A stretch of 64,000 nucleotides of DNA, from assembly GCA_945870025.1 (NCBI GenBank), contig CAMBQN010000014.1, forward strand, positions 1 to 64,000. Reading direction: 5' to 3'. The notes beneath the pieces were generated by a model that saw only the letters and a program-made list of their open reading frames with translations, did not search any database and was not told the DNA's origin. The translations under genes and the position numbers were made by a program. Shown piece after piece: positions 25,651 to 52,637 of the stretch (position 1 is its first letter; the number at the start of each line of letters is the position of its first letter). This DNA is from Akkermansia muciniphila. GTDB lineage: Bacteria; Verrucomicrobiota; Kiritimatiellia; RFP12; JAAYNR01.

Positions 25651-25687
25651 TGCGGCCTGAGAAAGTCAAGGGACACCCCATTTTCAG

Positions 25688-25829: not shown

Positions 25830-25861
25830 TATTTTCCGGGAGGTAGGGGAGGTCTGAAGGT

Positions 25862-26506: not shown

Positions 26507-26507
26507 G

Positions 26508-26549: not shown

Positions 26550-26564
26550 TGCAGCGAGAAGGCC

Positions 26565-28460: not shown

Positions 28461-28489
28461 AGGCGGCAATCATAGGGTGTTTCAAGCAA

Positions 28490-28517
28490 CCAAGAACCAA
28501 GAACCAAGAACCAAGAA
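28490..28517. repeat. Heptamer array R2 (CCAAGAA x4)
   Basis: Four perfect CCAAGAA units in the gap between the acsC stop (28529) and the RACo start (28460). A degenerate unit precedes it at 28483. Confidence 0.95.
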
Positions 28518-28528
28518 CAACTCTTTTC

Positions 28529-29872: not shown

Positions 29873-29882
29873 AGGGACCTCG

Positions 29883-29938
29883 TTCTTTGTTCTTTGTTCG
29901 TGGTTCTTAGTTCTTAGTTCTTGGTTCGTGGTTCTTGG
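29883..29938. repeat. Heptamer array R3 (TTCTTGG family x8)
   Basis: Eight consecutive 7-base units: TTCTTTG x2, TTCGTGG, TTCTTAG x2, TTCTTGG, TTCGTGG, TTCTTGG. It overlaps the 3' end of the four-helix-bundle gene: its last codons are repeat-encoded (ending EPRTKN) and its stop TAA (29907-29909) comes from a TTCTTAG unit. Confidence 0.95.
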
Positions 29939-30338
29939 TTGCTGGCGCATCGATCGGTGGAGCTGGTTTGCGTCGGTCTTGGGTCAGCAGATACTTGATA
30001 AAGCCACCAATGATAGCGCGAGTAACCTGTGCCTGTTTGTAGATGGCCGTAAATTCATCTTCGGACACGTATTCCTGATCCAAAGCTACATAGAGCGCGC
30101 TTTGAACTTCAGTGCAAGAACGTTGCGCATATCGCAGAAACTTGACGAATTCGGTGTTGCCGCCACTGTCAAACCCCTCGGCGACATTGAGCATGATCGA
30201 GACACACGCGCGCTGCGTCTGATCCTTCAGCCCGAAGTCGTGGCTGAATGGCCCCTTCTTAGTCGCCGCATACGCCATCTTAGCCAGCGCGCGAGCCTGC
30301 TTCCAGCCATCAATATCCTCAAATCGGTTGATTCGCAC
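29907..30338 (-). CDS. Four-helix-bundle protein (S23/IVS, Avd-like family)
   Basis: A 143-residue protein of the PF05635-type four-helix-bundle family: RFEDIDGWKQARALAKMAYAA, FGLKDQTQRACVSIMLNVAEGF and EFVKFLRYAQRSCTEVQSALY are typical. Family members occur as reading frames in 23S rRNA intervening sequences, as Avd in diversity-generating retroelements, and as orphans of unknown role. The start is a GTG at 30338 with AAAGGAG upstream. The last residues (TKNHEPRTKN) are encoded by the heptamer array. It interrupts the acs operon between acsB-D and acsC and is flanked by inverted heptamer arrays, which suggests it came in as a unit. No reverse transcriptase or rRNA is nearby. Confidence 0.85.
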   Translation of the reverse strand: MRINRFEDIDGWKQARALAKMAYAATKKGPFSHDFGLKDQTQRACVSIMLNVAEGFDSGGNTEFVKFLRYAQRSCTEVQSALYVALDQEYVSEDEFTAIYKQAQVTRAIIGGFIKYLLTQDRRKPAPPIDAPATKNHEPRTKN

Positions 30339-30473
30339 GCCAACTCCTTTCGGATCATCCACACGGGTGGATGCCAAAGATTCTGCGAAGAGAAACAGAC
30401 TTCATTTGCATGAACTTCCAAAATTCCTTTTTGCGCCGTTTACCCATGATTTCGCTCATCGGCCATGCTCCAG

Positions 30474-30529
30474 CCAAGAACTAAGAACCAAGAACTAAGA
30501 ACCAAGAACTAAGAACCAAGAACTAAGAA
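30474..30529. repeat. Heptamer array R4 (CCAAGAA/CTAAGAA alternating, x8)
   Basis: Eight units in strict alternation of CCAAGAA and CTAAGAA, i.e. a 14-base higher-order repeat copied four times. It lies directly after the acsB-D stop and is the inverted partner of R3 across the four-helix-bundle gene. Confidence 0.95.
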
Positions 30530-30535
30530 CTCTCC

Positions 30536-33982: not shown

Positions 33983-35924
33983 TGGCTTCTCTCCGGTCCT
34001 TCATATCCAGCAATTTACGCTCGACCTTGCGGTTGATGCCGAGCTTTTCACGTTTCTCTTCCAACAGTTGCAGGCAGCGGGCAGCGGCGTCGGCCGCCGA
34101 GTCGCAGACGTGGAACGACGCGCCGAAGTCTTCCTTCGTGCCAGCGTTCAGGTAGTGGGTCACGTTCTCTGAGCCGCTGATGTAGAACGGGTGGCCGAGG
34201 ATCACGTCCACGCCGGAAGCCACAAAGTAGCAGCCGATGGCAATGGCCTTCTCACTCATCCACTCCGGCGCCACGCCCACGGCCGGCACCTTCGAGAGGT
34301 CGTCGCCGAGGCCGCCCTCGTGGACGATCTCCGTGGCCGCCTCCAGCAGGCGCGAGTTGTCCACGCAACTGCCCATGTGCAGGATGGGCGGGATGCCGAC
34401 GGCCTCGCAAACCTCGCGCAGACCGGCGCCGGCGAACTGCAGCGCGGTCTCCGGTGTGAGCCAGCCGCGCTTGCCCGATGAGATGGCGGAACAGCCGGTC
34501 TTGAGGACCAGAACATTCTGCTTGATCAGCTCGGTCGTGAGGTCGTTGGTGTATTCGTCGCTCTTGGACTTGGGGTTGTTGCAGCCGACAATGCCGACCA
34601 CGCCGCGGATGCGCCCCTGCATGATGGCGTCGTTCAGCGGACGGAACGAAGCGCGGTAGGAGCCGCCCAGCATGTACTTGATGGCCTCCACGCTGAAGCC
34701 GGCGACCATCTGCTCGCTGTGCTTCGGGATGAGGACCTTCTTCGGGTCGCGGTTCTTGTAGTTGTCGATCGCGCGTTTGAGGATGGCCTTGGCGGAACCG
34801 ACGCCGTCGTGCTCGTCGAACCGCATGTGCGCGGCGCCGGTGGTCTGGGCCATGTCTGCGGTCGAGACTACCTCGGTGTGGTAGGACTTGGCAACCAGCG
34901 GCAGGCTGGGCATGCAGCACTGCACGTCCACGACCATCATCTCCACGGCGCCGGTGATGATGGCCAGTTCCTGCTGGAGGAAGTTGCCGGCCACCGGGAT
35001 GCCATGGCGCATCAGGATCTCATTGGCGGTGCAGCAGAGGCCGGCCAGGGTCACGCCTTCCGCGCCTGCGGACTTGGCGTAGGCCTTGATCTCCGGATCA
35101 TCCACCATCACGGCCAGCATGTCCGAGAGTGTCGGATCATGGCCGTGCACGATGATGTTGACGGTCTTCTCGCCGAGCACGCCGAGGTTGGCGGCGCCGC
35201 GGATCGGGGTGGGGGTGCCGAAGAGGATGTCCGATGCGATGGTGCCTATGCGCGCGCCGCCCCAGCCGTCTGCCAGCGAGACGCAGAAGGCGTGGCGCAG
35301 AAGGTTGCGGTAGTCGTGGTCCACACCCATGGTGGTGCGGTGCATGGCCTCGACCACCATGCGGTCCACGCCGAAGGGTACCACGCCGTGCTTCTCCCAG
35401 ATGGCCTGCCGCTTGGTTGGTGCGAGCTGCAGCGTCTTGAGCGGCTCCTCCTGCGAGGTGAACTCGCCCAGGAAGAGGTTGGCCAGGTCGAGGGCCACGG
35501 CTTCCTTGGTGCGGCCGATCTCCTCGATCTGGTAGAGGCGCGCGGAGTAGCGCAGGGCGCGCTCGTCCTTGATCTCGTACCCGCCGCCGTGCCCTTGGGC
35601 CACGTTCCGGAGGAGCAGCACGAGGTGGCGCGCATGGTCGGAATGCGCGGCCGTGCCGCCGCTGACCTCGCGCAGGAAGTTGCGGGCCACGATGGTGTCT
35701 GCGTCTGCGCCGCAGACGCCGCGGGGCGACTTGGGCGTGATCCGGCAGGGTCCCATGTGGCAGATCTTGCAGCAGACGCCCTTGGTGCCGAAGGTGCACT
35801 GGTTCTTCTGCGTGTCCATGCGGCTGAAACAGGTGTCCACGCAGTCGCACCCGGCCTTGTCAATCAAGGCGATGGATGCCGCGTCAACGGCCCGGTCGGT
35901 CGATGTCTTTACTTCATTGGCCAT
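33975..35924 (-). CDS. acsA: Carbon monoxide dehydrogenase catalytic subunit
   Basis: The 649-residue Ni-Fe-S CODH (CooS/AcsA). The N-terminus holds the D- and B-cluster cysteines (Cys43, 51, 52, 55, 60 and 71; motif CCKICHMGPC). The C-cluster ligands are present along the chain: His in IVHGHDPTLSD, Cys in GLCCTANE, VQCCMPSL, GIVGCNNP, KTGCSAIS and MGSCVDN; the conserved acid-base Lys lies in WMSEKAIAIG. It reduces CO2 to CO for acetyl-CoA synthase, or oxidises CO in the reverse direction. The stop overlaps the acsB-D start by 8 bases, so the two are coupled. Length and residues are normal for a functional enzyme. Confidence 0.96.
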   Translation of the reverse strand: MANEVKTSTDRAVDAASIALIDKAGCDCVDTCFSRMDTQKNQCTFGTKGVCCKICHMGPCRITPKSPRGVCGADADTIVARNFLREVSGGTAAHSDHARHLVLLLRNVAQGHGGGYEIKDERALRYSARLYQIEEIGRTKEAVALDLANLFLGEFTSQEEPLKTLQLAPTKRQAIWEKHGVVPFGVDRMVVEAMHRTTMGVDHDYRNLLRHAFCVSLADGWGGARIGTIASDILFGTPTPIRGAANLGVLGEKTVNIIVHGHDPTLSDMLAVMVDDPEIKAYAKSAGAEGVTLAGLCCTANEILMRHGIPVAGNFLQQELAIITGAVEMMVVDVQCCMPSLPLVAKSYHTEVVSTADMAQTTGAAHMRFDEHDGVGSAKAILKRAIDNYKNRDPKKVLIPKHSEQMVAGFSVEAIKYMLGGSYRASFRPLNDAIMQGRIRGVVGIVGCNNPKSKSDEYTNDLTTELIKQNVLVLKTGCSAISSGKRGWLTPETALQFAGAGLREVCEAVGIPPILHMGSCVDNSRLLEAATEIVHEGGLGDDLSKVPAVGVAPEWMSEKAIAIGCYFVASGVDVILGHPFYISGSENVTHYLNAGTKEDFGASFHVCDSAADAAARCLQLLEEKREKLGINRKVERKLLDMKDRREANV

Positions 35925-35992
35925 GTTTGCTTTCTCCTAAGCGGGTCTCTTGCCTGCGGCAGTCGTCCTGCCCAAGGGTGTCGTTCATCGCT

Positions 35993-36018
35993 GCTGCGGG
36001 CAAGGGACTGCCCGCAGC
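35993..36018. repeat. 10-bp hairpin between cooC1 and acsA
   Basis: GCTGCGGGCA and its exact complement flank a 6-base loop in the 106-base gap between cooC1 and acsA. A related half (CTTGCCTGCGGCAG...CTGCCC) lies just before it. It may be an attenuator, an mRNA-stabilising hairpin or an interspersed palindromic element; no T-run follows. Confidence 0.55.
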
Positions 36019-36030
36019 TACTGTGTTACG

Positions 36031-36792
36031 TCAGTCAGTAATCGTCTTCAAAAAACCATCCACGCGTTTCACCAGTTCGTTCTCCGCCGGCAGCTCGGCA
36101 ATCGGGCCTCCACGCTCCCCGAGCGCGGCCACCTCGGCGTTGTCCGGCAGCGCCAGCACATAATCGGCGCCGGTTTCGCGCCGGATGGCGTCGAGTTCGT
36201 CCGGCAGTTGATCGTGGCGCAGGCGGTTGACGACCAACGCCAGCTTGCCGTAGGAGACTTCCATCTCCCGGGCCAGCGCGTGCAGGCGGCGCAGGGTTTC
36301 GAGTCCCCGGCGCGAAGGATCGGCCACCATCACCAGCACATCCACCTTCTGCGACAGGCGGCGGGACAGATTCTCCAATCCGGCTTCGTTGTCAATCACG
36401 ATCCACGGATAATGGTGCGCAATCTTCTCCAGCGCCGTCCGCAGCACGTTGTTCGCGTAGCAGTAACAGCCGGGGCCCTCGGGTCGGCCCATGGCGAGAA
36501 AGTCGAAGTCCGCGCCTTCCACCAGACTCTCCGCGATCTTGATCTCCAGCATTTCCTGCTTGGAGATGCCGGCCCCCATCCCTTTGCCGGCGATGATGCG
36601 CGCCTCTTCGCGGGCGCTGCCGATGGTTTGCTTCAATGAAATGCCGAGCACGGTGTCGAGGCAGGTGTTGGGGTCGGCATCCACCGCCAGCACCGGACGC
36701 CGGTTGCCGGCAATCAGTCGCGAAACCACCAGCCCGGAGACCGTGGTTTTGCCGACGCCGCCTTTTCCTGTGATGGCAATGGTGAAGGACAT
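36031..36792 (-). CDS. cooC: CooC-type nickel-insertion ATPase 1
   Basis: A 253-residue MinD-like P-loop ATPase with deviant Walker A GKGGVGKTT near the N-terminus, the switch DADPNTCLD, and the metal-binding Cys-x-Cys in EGPGCYCYANN (dimer-interface CYC). The VVIDNEAGLENLSRR-like block is typical of CooC/AcsF. These proteins load nickel into the CODH C-cluster, or into ACS. The gene lies immediately upstream of acsA. The 5' gap carries a different heptamer array (TTCAGGT). Confidence 0.9.
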   Translation of the reverse strand: MSFTIAITGKGGVGKTTVSGLVVSRLIAGNRRPVLAVDADPNTCLDTVLGISLKQTIGSAREEARIIAGKGMGAGISKQEMLEIKIAESLVEGADFDFLAMGRPEGPGCYCYANNVLRTALEKIAHHYPWIVIDNEAGLENLSRRLSQKVDVLVMVADPSRRGLETLRRLHALAREMEVSYGKLALVVNRLRHDQLPDELDAIRRETGADYVLALPDNAEVAALGERGGPIAELPAENELVKRVDGFLKTITD

Positions 36793-36801
36793 GGGAAAGT
36801 G

Positions 36802-36836
36802 TTCAGGTTTCAGGTTTCAGTGTTCAGGTTTCAGGG
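36802..36836. repeat. Heptamer array of a second type (TTCAGGT x5)
   Basis: Five 7-base units: TTCAGGT, TTCAGGT, TTCAGTG, TTCAGGT, TTCAGGG. They lie between the coiled-coil gene stop and the cooC1 start. The sequence is unrelated to TTCTTGG but the period is the same. Confidence 0.9.
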
Positions 36837-36844
36837 GTTGGGGG

Positions 36845-37051
36845 TTACTTTGCATGTGGTGTGCCGCAGCCATCGCTGATGCGCGCCAGCTCGGTGCGAC
36901 GCTCGGCCAGCTTCTCCTGGATCTGCTCGATCTGCCGGCTGCGCTCCGGCGCTTTCGGCTGCTCCGTCAGGCCGACAATCTGCTCCTCCAACGCATCCAC
37001 TTCGGCCATCAGGCTCTGGTATTTCTTCCGTGCGATTTCATTGGCTGTCAT
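36845..37051 (-). CDS. Small coiled-coil protein between two cooC genes
   Basis: A 68-residue, highly charged, helical protein (MTANEIARKKYQSLMAEVDA, then IEQIQEKLAERRTELARI) predicted to form a short coiled coil. I do not recognise a family. It lies 6 bases after cooC2 and upstream of cooC1 on the same strand, so it is probably part of the CODH maturation operon. The C-terminal GCGTPHAK offers one Cys and one His. Confidence 0.55.
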   Translation of the reverse strand: MTANEIARKKYQSLMAEVDALEEQIVGLTEQPKAPERSRQIEQIQEKLAERRTELARISDGCGTPHAK

Positions 37052-37057
37052 GGTTTA

Positions 37058-37831
37058 TCATCCTTTCTCCAGCTTGTCCAGAATGTCCTCAAACTTTTGC
37101 AGCAATTCCGGCTGCATGTCATCCAGCACGGAGCGTCCTTCGCGGTCGGCGCCGCGCAGTTGTTCGGTGTAAGGGATCATGCCCAGCAGCTCCTCGTCAC
37201 GGAAGGCCGCCCGCACAAAAGCCTCATCCGCAGGGCTGGTGATTTTGTTCCCCACCACGCGAAATCGGCGCAAGCCGATTTCGGCGCCGAGGGTCTTCAC
37301 GTGGCGTGCGGTTTCGATCGAACGCTGGCCGGGTTCGACCACGATGATCAGGGTGTCCACGCCGTGCGTGGTGCCACGGCCGAGGTGTTCAATCCCCGCC
37401 TCCATGTCCATGACCAGCGCCTCATTGCGATGCAGCACGACGTTGGAAACCAGCGCCTTCAGCAGCACGTTCTCCGGGCAGGCGCAGCCGCCGCCGCCGC
37501 GCGTAACCGCCCCGAGCACCAGCAAGGCCACGCCCGCATGCCGCCAGGCGTAGGCGTCGGCAATGTCGGCGACATCCGGGTTCATCTTGAACATCTGCCC
37601 GAACTTGCCGGCCTGGGCGCCGGTGCGCTCCTCGATCAGGGCGATCTGCCGGGCGATCGGCACGATTCGCTCTCGCACGGCTGCTGGAATTCCCAGCGAG
37701 GCCGCCAGGTTGGCGTCCGGGTCGGCATCCACGGCCAGCACGGTGCGGCCACGCCGCACCAGCAGCAGCGCGAGCGCTGCTGCCAGCGTGGATTTGCCCA
37801 CGCCGCCTTTACCGCTGATGGCGAGTTTCAT
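37058..37831 (-). CDS. cooC: CooC-type nickel-insertion ATPase 2
   Basis: A 257-residue paralogue of cooC1: deviant Walker A GKGGVGKST at residues of about 7-15, DADPDANLAASLG, and the Cys-x-Cys metal site GGGGCACPENVLLKAL. Two CooC-like ATPases beside acsA and acsB suggest one for CODH and one for the A-cluster of ACS, as with the acetogen paralogues CooC and AcsF; which is which cannot be told. The start ATG at 37831 directly abuts heptamer array R7 on the coding strand (…CCAAGAAC then ATG). The frame stays open upstream through the array, adding 47 repeat-like codons that I exclude. Confidence 0.9.
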   Translation of the reverse strand: MKLAISGKGGVGKSTLAAALALLLVRRGRTVLAVDADPDANLAASLGIPAAVRERIVPIARQIALIEERTGAQAGKFGQMFKMNPDVADIADAYAWRHAGVALLVLGAVTRGGGGCACPENVLLKALVSNVVLHRNEALVMDMEAGIEHLGRGTTHGVDTLIIVVEPGQRSIETARHVKTLGAEIGLRRFRVVGNKITSPADEAFVRAAFRDEELLGMIPYTEQLRGADREGRSVLDDMQPELLQKFEDILDKLEKG

Positions 37832-37832
37832 G

Positions 37833-37888
37833 TTCTTGGTTCTTGGTTCTTGGTTCTTGGTTCTTGGTTCGTGGTTCGTGGTTCTTCG
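37833..37888. repeat. Heptamer array R7 (TTCTTGG family x8)
   Basis: Eight units: TTCTTGG x5, TTCGTGG x2, TTCTTCG. It begins one base after the cooC2 start codon. Its inverted partner is R7b at 37948, with a 59-base spacer containing a GC-rich imperfect palindrome (GCGGCTCGTGAGGCCGC). Confidence 0.95.
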
Positions 37889-37947
37889 TTGCGGCTCGTG
37901 AGGCCGCTCGCCCTCCAGGTTGGAGCGTATGCGGCTGGCGACAGCAA

Positions 37948-37975
37948 CCAAGAACGACGAACAAAGAACCACGAA
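37948..37975. repeat. Heptamer array R7b (CCAAGAA family x4)
   Basis: Four units: CCAAGAA, CGACGAA, CAAAGAA, CCACGAA. It lies directly after the zinc-ribbon gene stop, in inverted orientation to R7. Confidence 0.9.
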
Positions 37976-37981
37976 CGATTC

Positions 37982-38218
37982 CTATTGCTTATCCTTCTTC
38001 ACTTCCCGTCCGAGACATTTCTCCGCTTCCTTGCACCATTTCGCACAGGCCAGATCCAGGCGCGGGTTGCGCACCTCACGCTTACAGCCGGCGCAGATCC
38101 GCACAGGTTCGTCCTTCCAGAACTCGATCTCTGCGCCGCACTGCGGGCAGGCGACCTGAAAGATATCTTCCGGTCTCCAGTAGCGCTGATCCTGGCCTGG
38201 GCAATGGACGTCGCTCAT
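37982..38218 (-). CDS. Small cysteine-rich zinc-ribbon protein
   Basis: A 78-residue protein that starts CPGQDQRYWRPEDIF and has two CxxC pairs (ACPQCGAE and ICAGCKRE) followed by DLACAKWCKEAEKCLG, eight or more cysteines in all. I recall this pattern, with a CPGQD start and a final CAxWCxxAExCLG, from proteins encoded near CODH/ACS and corrinoid genes, sometimes joined to a phosphohydrolase domain. Binding of zinc or an Fe-S cluster is likely; the role is unknown. The ATG at 38218 is chosen because upstream codons are repeat-derived. Confidence 0.7.
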   Translation of the reverse strand: MSDVHCPGQDQRYWRPEDIFQVACPQCGAEIEFWKDEPVRICAGCKREVRNPRLDLACAKWCKEAEKCLGREVKKDKQ

Positions 38219-38237
38219 GAAACATCCCCGTTTGTCG

Positions 38238-38265
38238 TTCTTGGTTCCTCGTTCTTGGTTCTTTG
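38238..38265. repeat. Heptamer array R8 (TTCTTGG family x4)
   Basis: Units TTCTTGG, TTCCTCG, TTCTTGG, TTCTTTG. It forms an inverted pair with R8b (38294-38321) across a 28-base spacer that itself begins TTGG and ends CCAA, so about 84 bases could form one long hairpin. Confidence 0.93.
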
Positions 38266-38293
38266 TTGGAGCGATGCGCGTATCCGTTGCCAA

Positions 38294-38321
38294 CCAAGAA
38301 CGAAGAACCAAGAACGAAGAA
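38294..38321. repeat. Heptamer array R8b (CCAAGAA/CGAAGAA x4)
   Basis: Units CCAAGAA, CGAAGAA, CCAAGAA, CGAAGAA in alternation. Inverted partner of R8, next to the methyltransferase gene stop. Confidence 0.93.
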
Positions 38322-38336
38322 CGATGCCGTCCGATC

Positions 38337-39398
38337 TCAGAACTTGTACGTGGCCTTCATCGCCTTCGACAGGGCGCTGAGGGACTCGAAAACCTTCATC
38401 GCGTCTGCCGGGTCCAGCGAGCCGGTGCCGCACGAGGGGGTGATGAGCGCCTGAGCGGCGATCTGCTGCCGGTCGATCCCCGTGGCAGCCAGGTGCTGCA
38501 TTCCCTGCTCGAGCTTGGCGGCGAGCGACTCGACCGTCTGCTCCCGGATGATCGAGGAGGTCGGCACTACGCCCCAGGCCAAGAGTCCGCCTTTGTTCAG
38601 ATGGGCCTTGACGCTGGCGGCGTACATGGCAATGGTTTCGCCGAAGCCGAAGGCATCGAAGTTCACGATGTCCACGCCAGCATCGATCAGGATGCTCCAC
38701 TCGGTGTTGCCGCAGCAATGCACGCCTGCGAGCGCGCCGTCGGCGTGGATCGCCTCGACGACCTCGTTGACGCGCGCCACGACGTCTTCGCGCTTGACCG
38801 ATACGTAGGTCGAGCTGCCGAAAGCCGAGAGGATCGGCTCGTCAATGAAGCAGATCACGCGCTCCGCATAGGGGCGGAACTTCTGGATCTGCCAGCGGCA
38901 CTTCATGGCCAGAGCCTTGACGATCATGTCGAGAAATTCCTCGTTGTAGTAGATGGCGCGTTTGTTCTCGTCCACGAGTGTGAGCGCGAAGCTGCACGGG
39001 CCGGTGGTCTGCACCTTGACGGCTGGGAGTTTGCGTCCCAGAGCCTTCAGCTTCTTCTCGAGCGCCGGGATGCCGCGGGAGAATTCGGGACCGATCGCCA
39101 GGGCAGAGCAGTCGCCGGTCTCGGTCGAGGTCATGTACTTCTCGTAGAACTGCGCGAAGGCATCCGAGTAGTCCTGGTTGGTCTGGAAGAACATGCGCTG
39201 CTTTTCGCGGTCGATCACCGCACAGGGCATCCCCTCGGAGTACTGGATCTCCATCTGCTCGTTCATGCCGAACTTCGGCAGTTGTGGCCAGATCGGCGCC
39301 TCGGAGAGGTGCTTCAGCGAAACATCTACGGCATAGTCGGCATTGTCAAACGGCATGCTGCCAATGGCAGTGGCCATGAATTTGGGTTGGAAGGACAT
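38337..39398 (-). CDS. MetE/UroD-like cobalamin methyltransferase
   Basis: A 353-residue single-domain protein of the MetE C-terminal / UroD superfamily (ATAIGSMPF start, then QTTGPCSFALTL, ICFIDEPILSAFGSSTY, GVHCCGNTEWSILIDAGVD and PSCGTGSL). The His-Cys of GVHCCGN and the Cys of PSCGTG are the expected zinc ligands that activate a thiol or accept a methyl group. It is far too short for methionine synthase MetE, which has two barrels. Similar genes accompany CODH/ACS clusters. It may move methyl groups between CFeSP-type corrinoid and another carrier. The start at 39398 follows GAGGAACGAACG, a ribosome-site-like stretch supplied by the heptamer array. Confidence 0.78.
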   Translation of the reverse strand: MSFQPKFMATAIGSMPFDNADYAVDVSLKHLSEAPIWPQLPKFGMNEQMEIQYSEGMPCAVIDREKQRMFFQTNQDYSDAFAQFYEKYMTSTETGDCSALAIGPEFSRGIPALEKKLKALGRKLPAVKVQTTGPCSFALTLVDENKRAIYYNEEFLDMIVKALAMKCRWQIQKFRPYAERVICFIDEPILSAFGSSTYVSVKREDVVARVNEVVEAIHADGALAGVHCCGNTEWSILIDAGVDIVNFDAFGFGETIAMYAASVKAHLNKGGLLAWGVVPTSSIIREQTVESLAAKLEQGMQHLAATGIDRQQIAAQALITPSCGTGSLDPADAMKVFESLSALSKAMKATYKF

Positions 39399-39404
39399 CG
39401 TTCG

Positions 39405-39467
39405 TTCCTCGTTCTTCGTTCGTAGTTCTTGGTTTTTAGTTCTTGGTGCCGCGTTCTTGGTTTCTGG
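39405..39467. repeat. Heptamer array R9 (degenerate TTCTTGG family x9)
   Basis: Nine units in register, several decayed: TTCCTCG, TTCTTCG, TTCGTAG, TTCTTGG, TTTTTAG, TTCTTGG, TGCCGCG, TTCTTGG, TTTCTGG. It lies just upstream of the methyltransferase start. Inverted partner R9b is at 39512. Confidence 0.88.
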
Positions 39468-39511
39468 TTAAGAGGCTGCCGCGTGATTTCGTGTGCTGAG
39501 CATTCTCCCAA

Positions 39512-39539
39512 CCAAGAACCAAGAACGAAGAACCAAGAA
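39512..39539. repeat. Heptamer array R9b (CCAAGAA x4)
   Basis: Units CCAAGAA, CCAAGAA, CGAAGAA, CCAAGAA directly after the homocysteine methyltransferase-like stop, inverted to R9 across 44 bases. Confidence 0.93.
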
Positions 39540-39552
39540 CGAACATTTACTT

Positions 39553-40449
39553 CTACTTCTTCAGCCCATCCACCGCCTTGCGGATGGCGTTGATGTGGGC
39601 GGGCGTGGTGCCGCAGCAGCCGCCGATGATGTTTGCGCCGGCAGCGACCAGCGCCGGGACCAGCTTGGCCATGTCTGCCGGAGTGTCCGGGAAGATGTCC
39701 GCGCCGTTCACGCTCTTCGGCAGGCCGGCGTTGGCATGCACGAGGATCGGCGTGGTCGGGGTGGCCTCGCGCATTTCGCGCACAATCTCGATCATGCGTT
39801 CCATGCCATTGCCGCAGTTGGTGCCGATGACATGCGCGCCAGCCTCGACCAGGGCCCTAGCCGCATCGGCCGGAGAGACGCCCATCATGGTGCGGTATTC
39901 ATCCTTCGTGTTCTTCTCAAAGGTGAAGGTGCAGATGACCTCGCAGGAGGTGTGTTTGCGGGCAGCCTGAACGGCCAGAACAGCTTCGTCAATGGCGCTC
40001 ATGGTCTCGATGCAGAGCGCATCCGCGCCGCCCTTGGCCAGCGCCACGGACTGCTCCCGGAAGGATTCGAAGATCTGCTCCTCGCTGACGTCGCCCAAAG
40101 CCAGCATCTGGCCGGTGGGGCCGACTGAGGCGATTACCCACTTGTCGGGACCGGCGGCCTGACGGGAGATCCGGGCCGCGGCTTCGTTGATCGCGGCGAC
40201 GCGGCCTTCCAAACCAAAGTGCTTCAGCTTGAAGGAGGTGCCACCAAAGCTGTCGCTTTCAATCATGTCCGCGCCAGCCTGAATGTAGCTGCGGCCGATG
40301 TCCTCCACGTCCGCGGCGTGCTCGATGTTCCAGAGTTCCGGACATTCGCCCGGCTTCATCCCCTTCTTCTGCAGGAAGGTGCCCCAGGCGCCGTCCGACA
40401 CCAGAATGCGGCCACTCTTGATGGCTGCGACGATCTTCTGTTTTGCCAT
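39553..40449 (-). CDS. Homocysteine S-methyltransferase-domain protein
   Basis: A 298-residue protein equal to the N-terminal (homocysteine-binding) barrel of cobalamin-dependent methionine synthase MetH. It has ILVSDGAWGTFLQ, ESDSFGGTSFKL, the first zinc Cys in GTNCGNG and the paired cysteines in GGCCGTTPAHI. It can therefore activate a thiol as methyl acceptor. Free-standing MetH-type domains occur in CODH/ACS and methylotrophic loci, where they work with a corrinoid protein. With no acsE in the window, it and the MetE-like protein are the visible methyltransfer candidates. The start has AAGGAG nine bases upstream. It is not repeat-associated at its 5' end. Confidence 0.85.
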   Translation of the reverse strand: MAKQKIVAAIKSGRILVSDGAWGTFLQKKGMKPGECPELWNIEHAADVEDIGRSYIQAGADMIESDSFGGTSFKLKHFGLEGRVAAINEAAARISRQAAGPDKWVIASVGPTGQMLALGDVSEEQIFESFREQSVALAKGGADALCIETMSAIDEAVLAVQAARKHTSCEVICTFTFEKNTKDEYRTMMGVSPADAARALVEAGAHVIGTNCGNGMERMIEIVREMREATPTTPILVHANAGLPKSVNGADIFPDTPADMAKLVPALVAAGANIIGGCCGTTPAHINAIRKAVDGLKK

Positions 40450-44923: not shown

Positions 44924-47900
44924 ATGAAGCGTAAACTCATCTGCATCATGGCAATCGCATTCACAACTTGGATCATTCGGGCGGCGTTGAATCCGCACAT
45001 CACCGAGCTCGATTTGAGCATTGACGGTGTGGCCGACTATGACGAGTTCTATGAGCCATCCCCCAGCATCACCCCGAAAGGCCCCGGCGGATTCGTCTGC
45101 TCGAACGGTTGGAAAATGATCACGCTGAAAGCCGTCGGCGTCAACGACCCCATGAAGACGCGGCTGAACTGGAACAGCGCCAGGATCGAAGTATGGACTG
45201 CGACGAATGGCGGGACACAAGTTTTAAGCCCGACCCTGTGGGACCCGGCATCTTCCATGCCCACTCAACTATGGGTTAAAGGCGTCTCAGTTAGCGCCAC
45301 CGGCCCCACAAAAGACGCCAGTGGCAACTGGACGAACTGCGGCCCCGAAACCCTCTGCCTGGAAGCCATCAACAACGGTGCCAATCCCACCACACCCGGG
45401 ACGTACTATGACCGGGTTGCGTTCACGGTCTACCAGGTCGATTCCATCACAGTCACCCCCAAGAATGCACCAACCGGATATGTGTCTTCAGTTGGCGTGA
45501 GCATTGGCGCTGGCGGATTCGCCTCGGCCGCCCATCAGGCGGACGTGGATATCAAGGTGTTGCCAGCGGTGGCCAACATTTCGGTGGAGGTCAGTTTGGT
45601 CAATGGTCGAGGACATGAGGTTGGCCGGGATGCAAAATTGGAGATGGGGAGCTTGACCGCCACAGCGGATGTGGCTGCGGTGAAAGTAGCCACGGCCGCT
45701 GGGGGCGTCATTAGCGGCGTAATGACATCGAGCGATGTGCTGTCCGACGGCATTCTCAATCCGAAATGCACCATTCATACGATCCACGTGGATTCGGATG
45801 TCGCCTTTATCTGGGATACCGTGAGCGAGGAGGGCGAATGGACATTTTCTCCCGATGCATTGCCAGTGCCAGGGGTGCTGACTAATTTTCTGACCTTGCG
45901 TCATCACCGGGACGATACGACCAACGCACCTTCGGAACCCTTCGACAACCACGACATCACCTTCTTTGTGACCCAAGTGCAATTTTCCAGCAATGGTGTC
46001 CTGACAACGCTGGAGAATACTCCTGCTGCCCCCATGGACCTGAGTTCTTGGGCGTACTTCTCTTCCATGTCATATATCACCACGTCCAATGGCCTGGTGG
46101 AAGCCCCCTTGATCGTGGAGGATAATCCGGCTTTGGAGAGCATACAAATTACCGCTTACGACTGGAGCGTTTGGCTGGCGTCCGCTGTTCCGCCCCCCCC
46201 TGCGCCAGTGCCAATCGCTCCCGGTAGCCCAATTAATGGGGGTGGGGTTGCGTTAGCCAGCACCAAAGCCGCTGGTGCAGCCGCTCCTAATAATCCGGCC
46301 AACAGGGACATCCAGAGCGCGAACGCCGAGCATCCGACTGCAACTATCATCAACCAAGGTAACTGGATTAAGCCATTTTTCGTTCGCATTCCCGGGCAAA
46401 TACCTGTCACAACAAATATGCCATCGCTCACCGGGTATTATGGCGCGAATGTTAGAATATACTTGGGAACCAATGATGTGAGCGACGTGAGTGTAAAGGT
46501 TGTTCATTCAAACACCTCCCATCAAGTAGCTTCAGCCGGTGACGCCTGGTGGCATTGGACAAAGGGGTCTGTATTTCCAGCCCAAACCAATAACTATGCC
46601 AACTCCCTCAATGTATATTTCGCAGGCAACCCGACGCTGAATCGATTCGTCAATTATGTGGCTGTTCCCCACACGGCGGGTGTATTTCAATTGTCCTTAA
46701 TAGTTGGAACGCAGACCGTGGACGTTGTAAACATCACGGCGGTGGATGCGCGCCTGTGTTTTCCGGGTCCGAGCGTTCCTGTAATCCTGACGAACAATGG
46801 CATACATACGGCCATTGTCCCAGTTGGGAGATCGGTGGATTGGGGTGTCACGCCTCCCAGTCTCAACATGCAATGGACGCAACCGCCGGTTACGTTCAGT
46901 TCGACAAGCCTTAGCGCCACGAACGAGACAGAAGGGATGTTGCGCGGGGTTTATTCCAACAATCTGACCTGTACGTCATTTAAGGTCGTTGCAAATGTTT
47001 CGGGTTCTGATTATCTATGGTCTAAACAGCTACTCCCGACCGATCCTGCCGGACCTCAGATCGGGCGGAGAGGCGAACTTGTCGACCCCTGGTATATGAT
47101 CTGTCCGGACGTGAAGATCGCGAAACCATCCGGCCCGTTACCGGCGAACGGCGAGGCCGGCGCCAGCGCTGACATCGCCACGCATCCGCTGTACGTCTTT
47201 GACCATGCGAACCCCGGCCAGTGCAAAGTCACGGTCGAGACTTCCCGTCTGCTAGGTCTGGCTCCCGCCACTCGGCAGTTGGTCTGGGATCGGCTGATTT
47301 GGCGGATGCCGGCGGTCGGCAATGTGACGCCCCTGACGAATGCCTGCGCGCCGGTGCCTAACCAGCCGTGGGCCACCAACTTCCTGTACGCCACCATGCC
47401 TAACAACAACAGCGCTTTTGGTAACACCAACGTCTGGCTCGGATTCACCCAGCGCGTCGACTGGTGCTGGAGCACGAATGTCCAGTTCCGCTTCGCCCGC
47501 ACCGGAACCAATGCCGCCGCCCGCGTGATCGCGGCGGGCGCCCTCAGCACCAATTACGTCGCCGCCGGCAACCCCAACTGGTACGTCTACTGGCAGCAGG
47601 TCGCGAATGGGTTCAGCAATACAAATGGTCCATGGCCTAGCGGCTTCTTCGGCCCGCAGGCGCAGCGGATGGTCTACTCGAATAGCATGTATGGCATATC
47701 CGCGCAAACGACGAATGCAGTTGGGACATATGGCGGCGGACCTTACGGGCCGGGTTATCAGTGGATAGATGCCATCACTATTTATCGCTGGAACCAAATC
47801 GGCATCTTTGAATGCATCACCACCATCCACCACGAAAATGGCCACCGCCAATCGGATCAACTGCCGAACAGTCAGGGTGGATGGGGAACGGGGCTTGTAT

Positions 47901-48217
47901 ACTCGCCTTATGATGACCTAGATCAAGACATAATTCACAACACATGGGAGGTTGCAGGCGGAGGGGGATACGCCTTGGGTTTCGACACGAATGCAGCAAC
48001 ACGCATCAGCAACGCCAAATGGCGTGGAAACTGGGGTCACGGGTGGGCCGATGCGAATACTGTCACTAATCCACCCCCTTACCCGCAAAATCCCTACTGC
48101 AACACGAACGGCATTAACGCGACGACAGGGAGTGGGCTGTGTCCACGTAACGAGGCGCATGTTGATGCGCGAATATCGGATATTGAATTGAAAGATTGGT
48201 CTTGGGTCTTGCCATGA
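44924..48217 (+). CDS. Large secreted protein with a C-terminal HExxH metalloprotease-like motif
   Basis: A 1097-residue protein with a signal peptide (MKRKLICIMAIAFTTWII). Residues of about 200-410 form the domain shared with the lipoprotein at 14845. A Pro-rich linker (about 415-430) and several beta-rich segments follow. Near the C-terminus TTIHHENGHRQSD holds HENGH at residues 970-974, an HExxH zinc motif; the third ligand is not clear. After it come DLDQDIIHNTWEVAGGGGYALGF and RGNWGHGWADAN, segments that recur in two downstream gene fragments. I infer a zinc peptidase domain in an extracellular protein, but the family is not one I can name. The ATG at 44924 has CGGAG upstream. The next gene starts 13 bases after its stop. 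Confidence 0.72.
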   Translation: MKRKLICIMAIAFTTWIIRAALNPHITELDLSIDGVADYDEFYEPSPSITPKGPGGFVCSNGWKMITLKAVGVNDPMKTRLNWNSARIEVWTATNGGTQVLSPTLWDPASSMPTQLWVKGVSVSATGPTKDASGNWTNCGPETLCLEAINNGANPTTPGTYYDRVAFTVYQVDSITVTPKNAPTGYVSSVGVSIGAGGFASAAHQADVDIKVLPAVANISVEVSLVNGRGHEVGRDAKLEMGSLTATADVAAVKVATAAGGVISGVMTSSDVLSDGILNPKCTIHTIHVDSDVAFIWDTVSEEGEWTFSPDALPVPGVLTNFLTLRHHRDDTTNAPSEPFDNHDITFFVTQVQFSSNGVLTTLENTPAAPMDLSSWAYFSSMSYITTSNGLVEAPLIVEDNPALESIQITAYDWSVWLASAVPPPPAPVPIAPGSPINGGGVALASTKAAGAAAPNNPANRDIQSANAEHPTATIINQGNWIKPFFVRIPGQIPVTTNMPSLTGYYGANVRIYLGTNDVSDVSVKVVHSNTSHQVASAGDAWWHWTKGSVFPAQTNNYANSLNVYFAGNPTLNRFVNYVAVPHTAGVFQLSLIVGTQTVDVVNITAVDARLCFPGPSVPVILTNNGIHTAIVPVGRSVDWGVTPPSLNMQWTQPPVTFSSTSLSATNETEGMLRGVYSNNLTCTSFKVVANVSGSDYLWSKQLLPTDPAGPQIGRRGELVDPWYMICPDVKIAKPSGPLPANGEAGASADIATHPLYVFDHANPGQCKVTVETSRLLGLAPATRQLVWDRLIWRMPAVGNVTPLTNACAPVPNQPWATNFLYATMPNNNSAFGNTNVWLGFTQRVDWCWSTNVQFRFARTGTNAAARVIAAGALSTNYVAAGNPNWYVYWQQVANGFSNTNGPWPSGFFGPQAQRMVYSNSMYGISAQTTNAVGTYGGGPYGPGYQWIDAITIYRWNQIGIFECITTIHHENGHRQSDQLPNSQGGWGTGLVYSPYDDLDQDIIHNTWEVAGGGGYALGFDTNAATRISNAKWRGNWGHGWADANTVTNPPPYPQNPYCNTNGINATTGSGLCPRNEAHVDARISDIELKDWSWVLP

Positions 48218-48230
48218 TCGGAGGTCGTTG

Positions 48231-48767
48231 ATGCCCATGAGTATTAAGAGTCGAAGAATCAGACTTCTATTTGGATTCGTTCTTATAGGAATGCTGGTGG
48301 GGGTTGGGCTGTATGAATGGCTAACACAGTATTACTTTCCAGTACGAGATGCAGTGCCAATTGTAAATCTCTTGGAGAAGGGAGATTTTAGAGGAGCTGC
48401 ACGTCTAATTTCTGGGCCCCTTTTTCTGCCTAACGGCGAAATGGTAAGACTCCCAGATGGAAGGCCCAAGAGAGATCCCAATCGTATTCGGATTAGGGGT
48501 GTTGGTGCGGAAAGAATTAAGCGAGCCATCTTAAACGTTTTGAATGATTCATCGGATATCATTGTTTTACGGGAAACATTCAATTGTGTCATATTGGGCA
48601 CGATTGAACAAAATGTCTTATTCGATAAGCAGTCCGAATGCGCAATATTAGAGAAGGCCGTGATGCGGGTTAACGCAAAGAAGACAAGAGGAGAAACCGA
48701 TTGGTCCGTGGGAGTTAGTTCAAACGGATGGTACTACCTGAATATGAGTCATCTGGTTATTGATTAG
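48231..48767 (+). CDS. Small membrane-anchored protein A, next to the HExxH protein
   Basis: A 178-residue protein with one N-terminal transmembrane segment (about residues 10-30, LLFGFVLIGMLVGVGLYEWL) and a soluble domain outside the cytoplasm. It is clearly related to the protein at 48987: RDPNRIRIRGVGAERIKRAIL matches GDPKRIKITGAGALEVKRALL, and SECAILEKAVMRVNAK matches KEWAIIGAAAERQSAK. I recognise no known family. The start has GGAGG six bases upstream and lies 13 bases after the HExxH protein stop, so coupled expression is likely. Base composition is lower in GC than the flanking genes. A partner or inhibitor of the protease-like protein is one possibility; nothing in the sequence proves it. 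Confidence 0.7.
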   Translation: MPMSIKSRRIRLLFGFVLIGMLVGVGLYEWLTQYYFPVRDAVPIVNLLEKGDFRGAARLISGPLFLPNGEMVRLPDGRPKRDPNRIRIRGVGAERIKRAILNVLNDSSDIIVLRETFNCVILGTIEQNVLFDKQSECAILEKAVMRVNAKKTRGETDWSVGVSSNGWYYLNMSHLVID

Positions 48768-48805
48768 AGCCTGGCTGAAAAGGGGTTTGCGAATGTATTT
48801 TTTGA

Positions 48806-48982
48806 CCCGGCGTTCAAGATTCAGGCTTGAAACGGCATGGGACGGGGACGGGAATCGTGTGGACCCTTGCAAGTGATGCGGATGGCGATTTAATCAATGA
48901 CCTCTGGGAGACGAACGGGGCGGTGGGTTATCTGTTGGGGTTCCGCATCACTTCTCCAACAAATTATGCTGAGACGGAGTAA
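48806..48982 (+). pseudogene. Orphan C-terminal fragment of an HExxH-protein paralogue (1)
   Basis: After an in-frame stop, the frame reads GTGTGIVW, then DADGDLINDLWETNGAVGYLLGF, ending SPTNYAETE and TAA. This matches GWGTGLVY, DLDQDIIHNTWEVAGGGGYALGF of the intact protein just after its HExxH motif. The fragment keeps a better Asp-rich DxDxD pattern than the intact gene. It has no start, no HExxH motif and no upstream part. Its stop lies 4 bases before the next gene, whose ribosome site overlaps its last codons. Confidence 0.7.
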
Positions 48983-48986
48983 TCCA

Positions 48987-49502
48987 ATGAAACGATATCT
49001 GGTGTTCGGGTTGGTAGTGGCGGGTTGTCTTTTGGCCGCAATGGGGGGACGCCTGTACTACACGCATCGCTACCTTCCGATTCAGGCTGTTCAACCGATC
49101 ATCAAACTGCTGGACGAGGGCACAAGGAATAGCATTGAGGAAGGGACGTATCGGGTTCGGGGTCTCATGATCGTGCAGTACCCGGCGGGGAGAAGTGGGA
49201 TGGAAGGGGATCCCAAGCGGATAAAGATAACGGGCGCTGGTGCGTTGGAAGTGAAGCGCGCGCTGTTGCGGGCGATGGAGAAGGCGACCGATCCCGTAAC
49301 GCTGCAGTTTCTACTTACATGCGTGGGTGCTTCAGCAGAAGAGGGGACACTTGTTTTCCGAGGCGAAAAGGAGTGGGCCATCATCGGGGCTGCGGCAGAA
49401 CGGCAGAGCGCGAAGCCTTGGCAACACTTGTATTTCTTCGTAACGAAGGACACGAACGGCGTTACAGTGTTGGGCGGTGGTTCAACGATGCGAATACCGT
49501 AA
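48987..49502 (+). CDS. Small membrane-anchored protein B, paralogue of A
   Basis: A 171-residue paralogue of the protein at 48231 with the same plan: an N-terminal transmembrane segment (YLVFGLVVAGCLLAAMGG), PIQAVQPIIKLLDEG against PVRDAVPIVNLLEKG, then the GDPKRIKITGAGALEVKRALL core and a beta-rich end (LYFFVTKDTNGVTVLGG). GGAG lies eight bases before the ATG at 48987, within the final codons of the orphan C-terminal fragment. So the pairing of an HExxH-protein C-terminus with a following small gene is repeated here even though the large gene has decayed. Function unknown. Confidence 0.7.
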   Translation: MKRYLVFGLVVAGCLLAAMGGRLYYTHRYLPIQAVQPIIKLLDEGTRNSIEEGTYRVRGLMIVQYPAGRSGMEGDPKRIKITGAGALEVKRALLRAMEKATDPVTLQFLLTCVGASAEEGTLVFRGEKEWAIIGAAAERQSAKPWQHLYFFVTKDTNGVTVLGGGSTMRIP

Positions 49503-49554
49503 CCGGTAAACTTGGTGACGATTCCGTGTTGAGGTGCCATCCGCAGTCACCTAG

Positions 49555-49706
49555 GGTGCCAACAGAAACTGGGACCACGGGTGGACGAACGCCACGGGGT
49601 ATGCAATCGAGTGGGGTCGGGGTCTGAAAGTTTGTACATCAGAATCCAAGATGTCTATCCGGATGGTAATGTGCGCATAAAAGGCATCAATCTCACGTCG
49701 CCATAG
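49555..49706 (+). pseudogene. Orphan C-terminal fragment of an HExxH-protein paralogue (2)
   Basis: ANRNWDHGWTNATGYAIEWG matches the RGNWGHGWADAN segment near the end of the intact protein. A frameshift near 49618 moves the reading frame to SESLYIRIQDVYPDGNVRI and a stop at 49704-49706, matching the position of EAHVDARISDIELKD at the end of the intact protein. No start or upstream part exists. The next gene begins 13 bases after the stop. Confidence 0.6.
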
Positions 49707-49719
49707 GGAGACCGGAATC

Positions 49720-51543
49720 ATGAAGCACAGAGTTCTCCTTTTGATAACGCTCTTGCTGGGATCCTTGCAGTTCATGCCCGGCAGTCTATGCTTTGGGGGC
49801 AACGCAGTTTTTCGAACAATATCGGATGGACTCGTTGAATGCGACATGTCTGGACTTTTGCCCAGAACATCGCTGGCGAATGGACTTATTGTGAACGAGA
49901 CGGATGTCGGTCTCGATGTGACTGAGGTCTGGATGGGGCATGCAAGCACACGGATTAAGAATTCTACCAACATGCCTCTTAGAACGACAATATTACTGCG
50001 GGATCGTACTAATGGGGTTGGGTATGCGCAGGTGGTCACAAACCTTACAGAGCACATGACATTACCTTTGGAGCAACGACAATTGGCTGACCTTTATCCA
50101 CTCTTCAGTCAGGCAATCAAGGTAGTAGATGGAGAGTCAGGAAAGCCTGTTGCCGACGCCGTTGTGGTCTACGACGGAAACGGCGGACTTACAGGTCTCA
50201 CGAGGACGCTCTTGGCTTGGCAAGGCGTGGGAGAGGACAAGTGGACAACCTCTTCCTTTGGAATGGCGACACTGCTGTATCCTGCGGTTAACGGAGGGAA
50301 ACTGAAAGTGAGGATCAGTCCGACTGACACACAGTCCAATGTATATGAGCCTATATCAATAGGACTGGAAATGCGGTCTTCAACTAATGTGTTGTTGGAA
50401 ATCGCTTTGCCGCGCAAGCCCGTATTCATTCCTGTGCACGTCAAATCCAGCGCCGAAAACGAATACGAACTAGCGGCGTGTTCGCTTTTTTTGCGCAGCG
50501 ATCGTATGCAGGTTGTGATCTACTGTGACCAGAAGACAACGCGAATACCGCCGCCAGGTGTCTACAGGATCACAGCCATGGCGCGCATTGGGAATGATTC
50601 GGTCCCTATAGAAGTAAGTGAAGCTGATCAGGTTTTGACGGTCCCAAAACAACCCAACCTGTTGAAGCAGATTGTTGTTCACATAGGGAAACCCAAACCA
50701 CGAATTGAGTTGACCGTAGGACTAACCGTAACGCAGGTGCTCGACCAAGCAATATATCCATACCAGCCCATACTTACATTAGTCAGCAAAAACGACGGGA
50801 CCGTGCAGAATCTTGTGGTTACAAATGCCATAACAACCATAAGAAATCTAACTCCAAATTCTTACACGTTACGACTTTCGTCTCCGTATATCAAGACGGC
50901 GGAGTTGAATCTCGACTTGAATCATCGCATTGATGCCGAGCATATTCAAATTGGAATGGAATGGAAGAAAAGTGTCTTCTGTAAGGTTGAAGGCGTTGCG
51001 AATGATAAAACGACGATTCAGGTGGTATCCGAGCGAGGTTTAGAATACACGGTTGAGGGTAAAGGTAGAGATGGTATGCGAATATTTGTGCCCGATGATA
51101 CTTCCACACGTTTTGTATGGCGCATTGCGGGTCAGGAAGACGTGGCTTACGGGTCTTTCCCATGTCCTAGAGATTTGCCGAATGAGGTGGTGATTGATGC
51201 CCTCGAAGCCAAGGCTGTCCATCTTCACATAGGAATTGATGGGGACATACTTGGATCCGTTGATCCGGTTCGAGTTTACCTGCGCAGTCTTGGAACTTCA
51301 AGTAGGACGGCTGACGCGCAGATGGAATCCTGGAATTACACAAGCGCGCTGGGCGAGAAAGGTGTTAAGTTGCATCTTGCATCAGGTCAGTATCTCGTAG
51401 AAGTGCGTCTTCTCGGAAAGGGGATGGTTCCAAAGAGTCCTCACGATTTCGTTAGTGCCTTCAGACCGTTCAAGGTTGTTGAGAAAAACGAGCAGGATAT
51501 TGAACTGCTTTTTGACAAGAACTCCATCAGGAGAGCGGAGTGA
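49720..51543 (+). CDS. Secreted protein with a carboxypeptidase-regulatory-like domain
   Basis: A 607-residue exported protein with a signal peptide (MKHRVLLLITLLLGSLQF, then MPGSLCFG). Residues of about 135-200 (IKVVDGESGKPVADAVVVYDG) look like a CnaB/carboxypeptidase-regulatory beta-sandwich; the rest is beta-rich with several similar strands. I recognise no catalytic motif. The base composition is visibly lower in GC than the housekeeping genes on the right, with more A/T-ending codons, suggesting acquisition from elsewhere. It sits 13 bases after a decayed HExxH-protein C-terminus, the same relation that proteins A and B have to theirs. Confidence 0.62.
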   Translation: MKHRVLLLITLLLGSLQFMPGSLCFGGNAVFRTISDGLVECDMSGLLPRTSLANGLIVNETDVGLDVTEVWMGHASTRIKNSTNMPLRTTILLRDRTNGVGYAQVVTNLTEHMTLPLEQRQLADLYPLFSQAIKVVDGESGKPVADAVVVYDGNGGLTGLTRTLLAWQGVGEDKWTTSSFGMATLLYPAVNGGKLKVRISPTDTQSNVYEPISIGLEMRSSTNVLLEIALPRKPVFIPVHVKSSAENEYELAACSLFLRSDRMQVVIYCDQKTTRIPPPGVYRITAMARIGNDSVPIEVSEADQVLTVPKQPNLLKQIVVHIGKPKPRIELTVGLTVTQVLDQAIYPYQPILTLVSKNDGTVQNLVVTNAITTIRNLTPNSYTLRLSSPYIKTAELNLDLNHRIDAEHIQIGMEWKKSVFCKVEGVANDKTTIQVVSERGLEYTVEGKGRDGMRIFVPDDTSTRFVWRIAGQEDVAYGSFPCPRDLPNEVVIDALEAKAVHLHIGIDGDILGSVDPVRVYLRSLGTSSRTADAQMESWNYTSALGEKGVKLHLASGQYLVEVRLLGKGMVPKSPHDFVSAFRPFKVVEKNEQDIELLFDKNSIRRAE

Positions 51544-51710
51544 TAGACCAGACGGGGACATAAACTAGGCGCGAGCGGCCACAGGGTCAGACTAGAATCT
51601 AGAAAGTTGTTACAGTACGAAGTCAGAGAGAGGGAAAGAGAAGTTGAGTCAGGATGCAGCGGGGATCAGTAGGCGCTGGAAGTGTCCTCTGTTTCTTGCA
51701 TCAAAACACC

Positions 51711-52637
51711 ATGAACCGTAATCGCCTTCTTACATTGGCTATTCTGCTTGCGGCGGCCGGTATCGTCGCCTTGACGATCATCCGCACACGGGCGCCGGGC
51801 TTGGTGAGACGCGCACCTGTCGAGTCGGTGCCGGTGAACCAGACGCCGGTTGTGGTTCGTGTGCCGGACGCTGCCACGAATCAACCCGGACAGACCGGAG
51901 CCGGTGTGATTCCTGCGGAGACGCTTCCGGCCGGGTGGCAGGATTTCAGAACCATCACCGAGCAGGAGCGCCTGGACCGGGTAACGGCGGCGATGGAGAA
52001 TCATACGCTGCCGGCCGATCTGCTCGTGTTTTTCGAGAAGGAGATCTTCAACCGTCAGCACTGGGACGTGACTCGCAACAACATGGCCAATGCCTTGGTC
52101 TGGCAGGAGTCGCCCAATCCACGCCTGCACGAGCTTTTCGCCAAGATGCTGGCCGACGAGTCCGAAAGCCCGGTCTGGCGCGATTACTGTCTTCAATTTC
52201 TCTCCGAGTGCCTAAAATCTTCATCTGATCCCGAGGCCATCCAGTCGCTTCTGACACGCTACGCGCAGGGCAAGGACGGTCTGGCGGGCACGGCCATTGT
52301 GAATGTCGGATTGCAGGAAGCGGCCGGACGAATGAAGCCGGGCGAGACGTTTAGTCAGCAACTGGAGGCGCAACTGGCCGACCCGGAGGTGGTCACCCCG
52401 ACCAAGCTCAGCATTTTGGCGATGATCGGCAAGCGCAATGATGTCCGCCTCCTCCCGCTGGTCCGCACCTATGCCACGAACACGAACGACGCCCTCCGTC
52501 GCACCGCCATCGCCACCCTGGGTCAGATCGGTGCCCCCTCCGACCTCCCCCTGATCCGCGCGGGCCTGACCGCCCCCAATCGTTCCGTCCAAATGGCCGC
52601 CGATGCGGCGTTGAAGGCAATGGATCGGCGCAAGTAG
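51711..52637 (+). CDS. Membrane-anchored HEAT-repeat protein
   Basis: A 308-residue protein: an N-terminal signal anchor (MNRNRLLTLAILLAAAGIVA), a Pro/Val/Thr-rich linker (about 30-80), then helical HEAT/armadillo-like repeats, clearest at the end (LLPLVRTYATNTNDALRRTAIATLGQIG, with SVQMAADAALKAM). Probably a periplasmic scaffold or binding protein; no specific role can be given. The ATG at 51711 opens the hydrophobic segment and is preferred over an upstream start at 51654. The preceding 167 bases hold nothing I recognise. Confidence 0.7.
   Translation: MNRNRLLTLAILLAAAGIVALTIIRTRAPGLVRRAPVESVPVNQTPVVVRVPDAATNQPGQTGAGVIPAETLPAGWQDFRTITEQERLDRVTAAMENHTLPADLLVFFEKEIFNRQHWDVTRNNMANALVWQESPNPRLHELFAKMLADESESPVWRDYCLQFLSECLKSSSDPEAIQSLLTRYAQGKDGLAGTAIVNVGLQEAAGRMKPGETFSQQLEAQLADPEVVTPTKLSILAMIGKRNDVRLLPLVRTYATNTNDALRRTAIATLGQIGAPSDLPLIRAGLTAPNRSVQMAADAALKAMDRRK

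Follow-up and report, generated by a model that had tools for sequence, protein, structure and literature searches.

A candidate polymorphic toxin-immunity locus with an exchangeable HExxH tail in a Kiritimatiellia genome

Polymorphic toxin systems follow a common pattern, in which an exchangeable tip is paired with a cognate downstream gene, displaced tips decay and immunity genes last (PMC2935791, PMC9086364, PMC3482391). Displacement of the C-terminal tip has been described for Rhs proteins (Jackson et al. 2009, PMC2935791). CdiA-CT/CdiI pairs of contact-dependent inhibition (CDI) and their orphan modules are also documented (review PMC9086364; Poole et al. 2011, PMC3150448). The VgrG2b C-terminal domain and PA0261, a Tpe-Tpi pair, represent a periplasmic HExxH metallopeptidase toxin with an envelope-located immunity protein (PMC6899460). 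Tox-MPTase and other peptidase tips of polymorphic toxins (Zhang et al. 2012, PMC3482391) and the TANFOR polymorphic toxins of Bacteroidetes (PMC7073777) are further relatives in design. The locus described here lies in a stretch of 64,000 nucleotides (the window; contig CAMBQN010000014.1 of assembly GCA_945870025.1), where a gene for a large secreted HExxH protein is followed by C-terminal tail fragments (stubs) and partner genes. With a probability of roughly 70%, it is considered to represent a new family of polymorphic toxin-immunity systems.

Module exchange is visible when the window genome (G000; 59 contigs, 81% complete, the window being on contig 14) is set beside a genome of the same genus (G001; 220 contigs). 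G001 carries complete tails at three loci (L016, L017 and L018) and a truncated tail at L019. The large genes of the window and L016 are 96.4% identical in DNA over 2.5 kb (45116-47613) and about 50% identical beyond, and the switch lies at most 10 bases from the end of the pre-tail motif GNPNWYVYWQQVA (residues 887-899). Ahead of this junction 5% of the synonymous sites differ, and past it 79%, giving a synonymous divergence (dS) of 0.05 in the body and saturation in the tail (proportion of differing sites, pS, 0.79). Such a combination would not be produced by selection on the protein alone. In lepA, a conserved gene used as a benchmark, the two genomes are 90% identical; the bodies are therefore closer than the benchmark, and the tails far more distant.

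The tail and the gene behind it change together. The window tail is 66% identical in protein to that of L018 and 51% to that of L016. Partner A, the gene directly behind the window tail, is 61% identical to the partner of L018, the locus with the most similar tail. The body (residues 429-902) is 95.7% identical between the window and L016 and 36% between the window and L018, with 63.5% between L017 and L018. The attached tail and A thus match a G001 locus with a different body, and the window, L016, L017 and L018 loci hold four body/tail combinations. The gene after the L016 tail is a homologue not of A but of partner B (64%), which lies farther downstream in the window. In trees, the body of the window joins L016 (support 100/100; window with L018 rejected, p=3e-5), the tail plus partner joins L018 (98/97; window with L016 rejected, p=0.02), and among partners B joins that of L016 and A that of L018 (A with the L016 partner rejected, p=5e-4).

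The stub in front of B matches the large protein (tblastn E=6e-6) and the intact L016 tail (75% DNA identity over 132 bases), and it has no DNA match to the window's own attached tail. By these matches it is a genuine tail remnant beyond chance. Because the stub and B resemble the L016 tail with its partner whereas the attached tail and A match L018, tail and partner travel as one module, and the displaced module stays downstream of the new tail. The stub and B belong to the L016 module type, although the separation is not recent (B against the L016 partner: nonsynonymous divergence, dN, 0.26; dS 0.83). In the L018 pair, as in B, dN amounts to roughly a third of dS, so the partner reading frames are maintained. 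The second stub shares one 40-base block with the L016 tail (85% DNA identity, E about 1e-9; profile E=0.003) and is a decayed remnant rather than a readable unit.

The positions given in the initial annotation for the large gene, A, B, the fragments and the 607-residue protein all hold (Table 1). It had also described the order of tail and partner as occurring three times, with 4-13 bases in between. This stands, the distances from the tail or stub end to the next gene being 13, 4 and 13 bases. The third unit is the weakest because its stub is frameshifted and the 607-residue protein has no relatives. That protein has no relative in 145 genomes and no Pfam or NCBIfam match, and it is a tentative member of the system.

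Table 1. Features of the locus and its flanks (window coordinates)
Feature	Position	Strand	Details
PKD-domain secreted protein, 1049 aa	41706..44855	+	Pfam PKD matches
Large secreted HExxH protein, 1,102 aa	44924..48217	+	ATG at 44924; signal-like N-terminus, body, pre-tail motif, exchangeable tail
Pre-tail motif GNPNWYVYWQQVA at body/tail junction	47567..47605	+	Same in five close homologues
Exchangeable C-terminal tail, candidate zinc peptidase	47606..48217	+	HExxH at 47831-47845, D-x-D-x-D...E further on
Partner A, candidate immunity protein for attached tail	48231..48767	+	N-terminal membrane anchor and soluble domain; 13 bases past tail
Orphan stub of the other tail type, no longer with HExxH	48806..48982	+	Hidden Markov model E=1.4e-13 against intact-tail profile
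Partner B, candidate orphan immunity gene	48987..49502	+	Intact anchored paralogue of A
Second tail stub, frameshifted	49555..49706	+	Similarity confined to 49567-49606
607-aa secreted protein, third partner position	49720..51543	+	13 bases past stub; signal-like N-terminus; GC 48.5%
Anchored HEAT-repeat protein	51654..52637	+	HEAT_2 E=2.7e-11; recurrent neighbour

Further stubs were sought by scanning the fetched loci with the tail profile. In L018, 13 bases separate a stub (2661-2795) from a second, intact homologue of A. This stub shares 88% DNA identity with the end of the locus's own tail, and the two homologues (A1 and A2) are 72% identical. A stub precedes an intact partner in L080 (3690-3782), and on the minus strand of L079 a stub is followed after 6 bases by a partner that runs off the contig. 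L088 has a stub (5446-5664), then a second partner and a further frameshifted stub. Together with the window, this brings the arrays of stub and partner to five loci, spread over four genomes and involving three unrelated families of partners, and HExxH is missing from every stub. Six homologues of A were found among 192 related genomes, and all six lie directly behind a tail or tail stub. The association of A with tails and that of stubs with partner genes, both proposed earlier, thus survived a search for exceptions.

A and B were correctly described as membrane-anchored paralogues, since they are 31-33% identical and both have an N-terminal membrane segment. Neither matches a Pfam or NCBIfam family. 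The AlphaFold model of A (predicted local distance difference test, pLDDT, 68) shows three helices and a beta hairpin in addition to the anchor helix. Alignment of the UBA6053 partner with A/B by hhalign (E=8e-4, probability 24%) is suggestive only, and a HEAT-repeat origin of A/B was unsupported. The GC content of A is 43%, compared with 61.6% for the window, and the low GC of tip and partner genes was counted for the toxin-immunity reading.

By profile search, 23 of 346 genomes in the class carry tails, as do 20 of 388 genomes in the phylum, four of these 20 lying outside the class. Searches of plasmids and phages gave no match to the tail. Across 25 aligned tails, the only invariant residues are the H, E and H of HExxH and one W; the pre-tail W-x-x-Y-W, the D-x-D-x-D...E stretch and a Glu 35 residues past the second His are at least 90% conserved. 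The large protein of the window carries HHENGH and, as first noted, is without a known toxin domain, as it matches no Pfam or NCBIfam family. A PDB match of the tail to 2j42 was weak and covered the D-x-D repeat only, and other PDB profile matches were irrelevant. The tail is a candidate zinc peptidase that would probably cleave envelope proteins.

BLAST clustering placed the 25 tails in one cluster and the partners of 27 loci (the aligned tails plus L092 and L020) in about 19. Some partner families have HEAT repeats, one is T2SSG-like, and the majority match no family. At 25 of the 27 loci, a gene that runs in the same direction and has a hydrophobic N-terminus starts at most 20 bases downstream, against 22 of 102 background genes. 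This background is rough: it rests on simple gene calls, N-termini were judged by hydropathy and not by a signal-peptide predictor, and the loci are not independent of one another. In a further set, which had no part in forming this rule, such a gene lies within about 13 bases of six of seven terminal tails and 93 bases from the seventh. Tail-like HExxH domains that are internal to long proteins, not C-terminal, occur in L117 and L119, a misfit with a simple tip model.

Other tips are found on related bodies. In L039 (2-4421), a gene with a protein-arginine deiminase (PAD) tip on a TSP3 body (2-2503; PF03068, E=4.5e-18) has behind it a tandem pair of paralogous genes for secreted proteins. In L092, a transglutaminase (TGL) tip (25-2406; PF20085, E=6e-12) sits on a body akin to those of the HExxH family, and an exported gene follows. 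L020 (G000:C1, 6678-14223) has a 1261-aa protein, of which the N-terminal 180 residues or so alone are related to the large protein, with an unrelated HEVGH tail; an exported partner behind it is cut by the contig end. HExxH, PAD and TGL tips thus occur on related bodies, and no such swap was seen within the window's own body type. Surface domains of the PKD, TSP3 and LTD types are present in the bodies.

What was observed directly is that modules are exchanged, that bodies and tails form mosaics, that partners recur next to tails and that stubs lie beside intact partners. The data show four features of polymorphic toxin systems, namely an exchangeable C-terminal domain, a co-varying downstream gene, orphan cassettes and non-homologous tips; the downstream candidate immunity gene matches by position and co-variation only. 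The toxin-immunity reading is thereby supported as an architecture, and the early comparison with arrays of orphan tips and immunity genes is borne out at that level by module exchange and by the recurrent stub arrays. We infer zinc peptidase activity and toxicity of the tail, its envelope target, immunity by the partner and delivery. In the proposed mechanism, the large secreted protein would present or deliver its C-terminal HExxH tail, which would probably cleave proteins in the envelope of the target cell. The membrane-anchored or exported product of the next gene would block the cognate tail in the producer. Tail and immunity gene would be replaced jointly by recombination near the pre-tail motif. 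The displaced tail would then decay and lose its catalytic part, and its immunity gene would stay intact, guarding against neighbours that still bear that tail. Because export or anchoring is seen in almost every partner, the cell envelope is the likeliest site of action of the tip, as it is for the HExxH toxin VgrG2b, whose immunity protein is periplasmic (PMC6899460).

Several results weigh against the toxin-immunity reading. The tails belong to no Pfam, NCBIfam or PDB family, nor was there a match to any known family of toxins or immunity proteins. An AlphaFold model of the tail built from two sequences reached a pLDDT of 30 and was discarded, and the predicted structure of A has no PDB match. 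The sheath gene (PF05943) of the type VI secretion system (T6SS) is present in none of seven carrier genomes (window genome 81% complete), and the type II secretion system (T2SS)/type IV pilus genes (T2SSF) in all seven were the only secretion-type genes found. As the sheath gene is absent from these genomes, a T6SS was ruled out as the carrier. Tail-only trees were too short and divergent to resolve and were given no weight as support. The module in the window differs from that seen in G001, with B at a dS of 0.83 from L016, and the close family is known from two genomes plus UBA6053.

Inhibitors are often encoded next to secreted proteases. A secreted housekeeping protease, serving nutrient acquisition or surface maturation with an adjacent inhibitor, tether or chaperone, is the leading competitor, though an unlikely one; the diversity would then reflect substrate range and not conflict. 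The PKD, TSP3 and LTD-type domains of the bodies agree with it, as does the finding of no contact-dependent delivery machine (T6SS sheath gene in none of seven genomes). However, about 19 unrelated partner families for one tail family are unexpected for a conserved chaperone, intact partners beside tail stubs would have no client, and PAD or TGL tips on related bodies do not suit a housekeeping protease. Tandem duplication and decay of the 3' end of the gene, with fragments and partners functionally unlinked, had been named from the start as the simple alternative and is now improbable. The L018 pair may have arisen in this way, given its stub resembling its own tail end and its similar A1 and A2, and the badly decayed third fragment would also fit. 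For the window it is largely refuted, because the stub matches the tail of another locus and not its own, and A and B are just 31% identical; the partner frames are intact and constrained, and the same arrangement recurs with unrelated partners in L079, L080 and L088. A chimeric join of paralogues in metagenome-assembled genomes, mimicking the body/tail switch, is very improbable even with both assemblies fragmented and the L016 gene frameshifted in mid-body (10980-11004; an assembly error or a real break) and containing a contig end, since the contig of the window is coherent and long, body and tail are also mismatched, independently, between L017 and L018, the stub and B hold the alternative module independently, and arrays recur in other genomes.

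Homologues of the large protein were found in G001 and UBA6053. Copies of the upstream PKD protein also precede the L020 gene (same genome, 92% identical) and the L019 gene, and homologues of the HEAT-repeat protein lie near L016-L019. By eye, transposase genes (IS66-like, REP-type and IS21-like) lie just downstream of L016, L017 and L018. Elsewhere in the window, a 446-aa protein (14845-16185) shares with the large protein its body domain (residues 196-428, 33%) and has a different C-terminal domain, secretin/STN-like in looks by eye. A tandem pair of near-identical genes of about 890 aa lies at 9458-12124 and 12158-14848. Methyltransferase and CO dehydrogenase/acetyl-CoA synthase type genes at 24526-40449, judged by eye, suggest a Wood-Ljungdahl cluster.

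On a wider scale, it is somewhat better than an even chance that the locus stands for an undescribed polymorphic toxin class in this class of bacteria, sparse elsewhere in Verrucomicrobiota. Its tips would be protein-modifying enzymes (HExxH peptidase, arginine deiminase and transglutaminase) that act outside the cytoplasm. Each would be countered by an exported immunity protein from one of many unrelated families, and the genomes checked have no T6SS. In the open-access papers searched (subscription journals being outside their scope), no paper pairs Kiritimatiellae-type bacteria with polymorphic toxins, so the finding would extend polymorphic toxin biology to a little-studied, largely uncultured lineage. 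If true, the gain would be a new family of HExxH tips, many families of candidate immunity proteins and a junction motif that can be recognised. The finding would also make testable which envelope proteins are attacked by exported peptidase tips, and how tips are delivered without T6SS or CDI.

Compared with Rhs, the locus shares a conserved core, an exchangeable tip, downstream arrays of dissociated and decayed tips, and low GC in the tips. Unlike Rhs, the large protein has no RHS repeats (no Pfam family), and the phylum and body are different; the tips here are homologous HExxH alleles, and the stubs retain the 3' end only, without a copy of the core. As in CdiA, a variable tail follows a fixed motif, the immunity gene would lie directly downstream, and orphan modules are perhaps displaced ancestors. 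In contrast to CdiA, Pfam finds no two-partner secretion (TPS) or filamentous-haemagglutinin domains in the large protein (CdiB was not searched for), the VENN motif is replaced by the pre-tail motif, and the partners are exported or anchored. The HExxH tip and envelope partner resemble Tpe-Tpi, in which some immunity proteins have an N-terminal transmembrane helix; Tpe-Tpi is delivered by T6SS, whereas the seven genomes here lack the sheath gene, and no family relation was found. Tox-MPTase likewise places HExxH peptidases as C-terminal toxin tips, but the present tails match no Pfam or NCBIfam toxin family and the bodies differ. TANFOR toxins are also taxon-restricted, secreted and followed by an immunity gene, and differ in N-terminal domain, toxin tip and host phylum. 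Because the locus has the architecture of polymorphic toxins and does not pass as an Rhs protein, a CdiA or a T6SS effector, it is best placed as a candidate new family within the polymorphic toxins.
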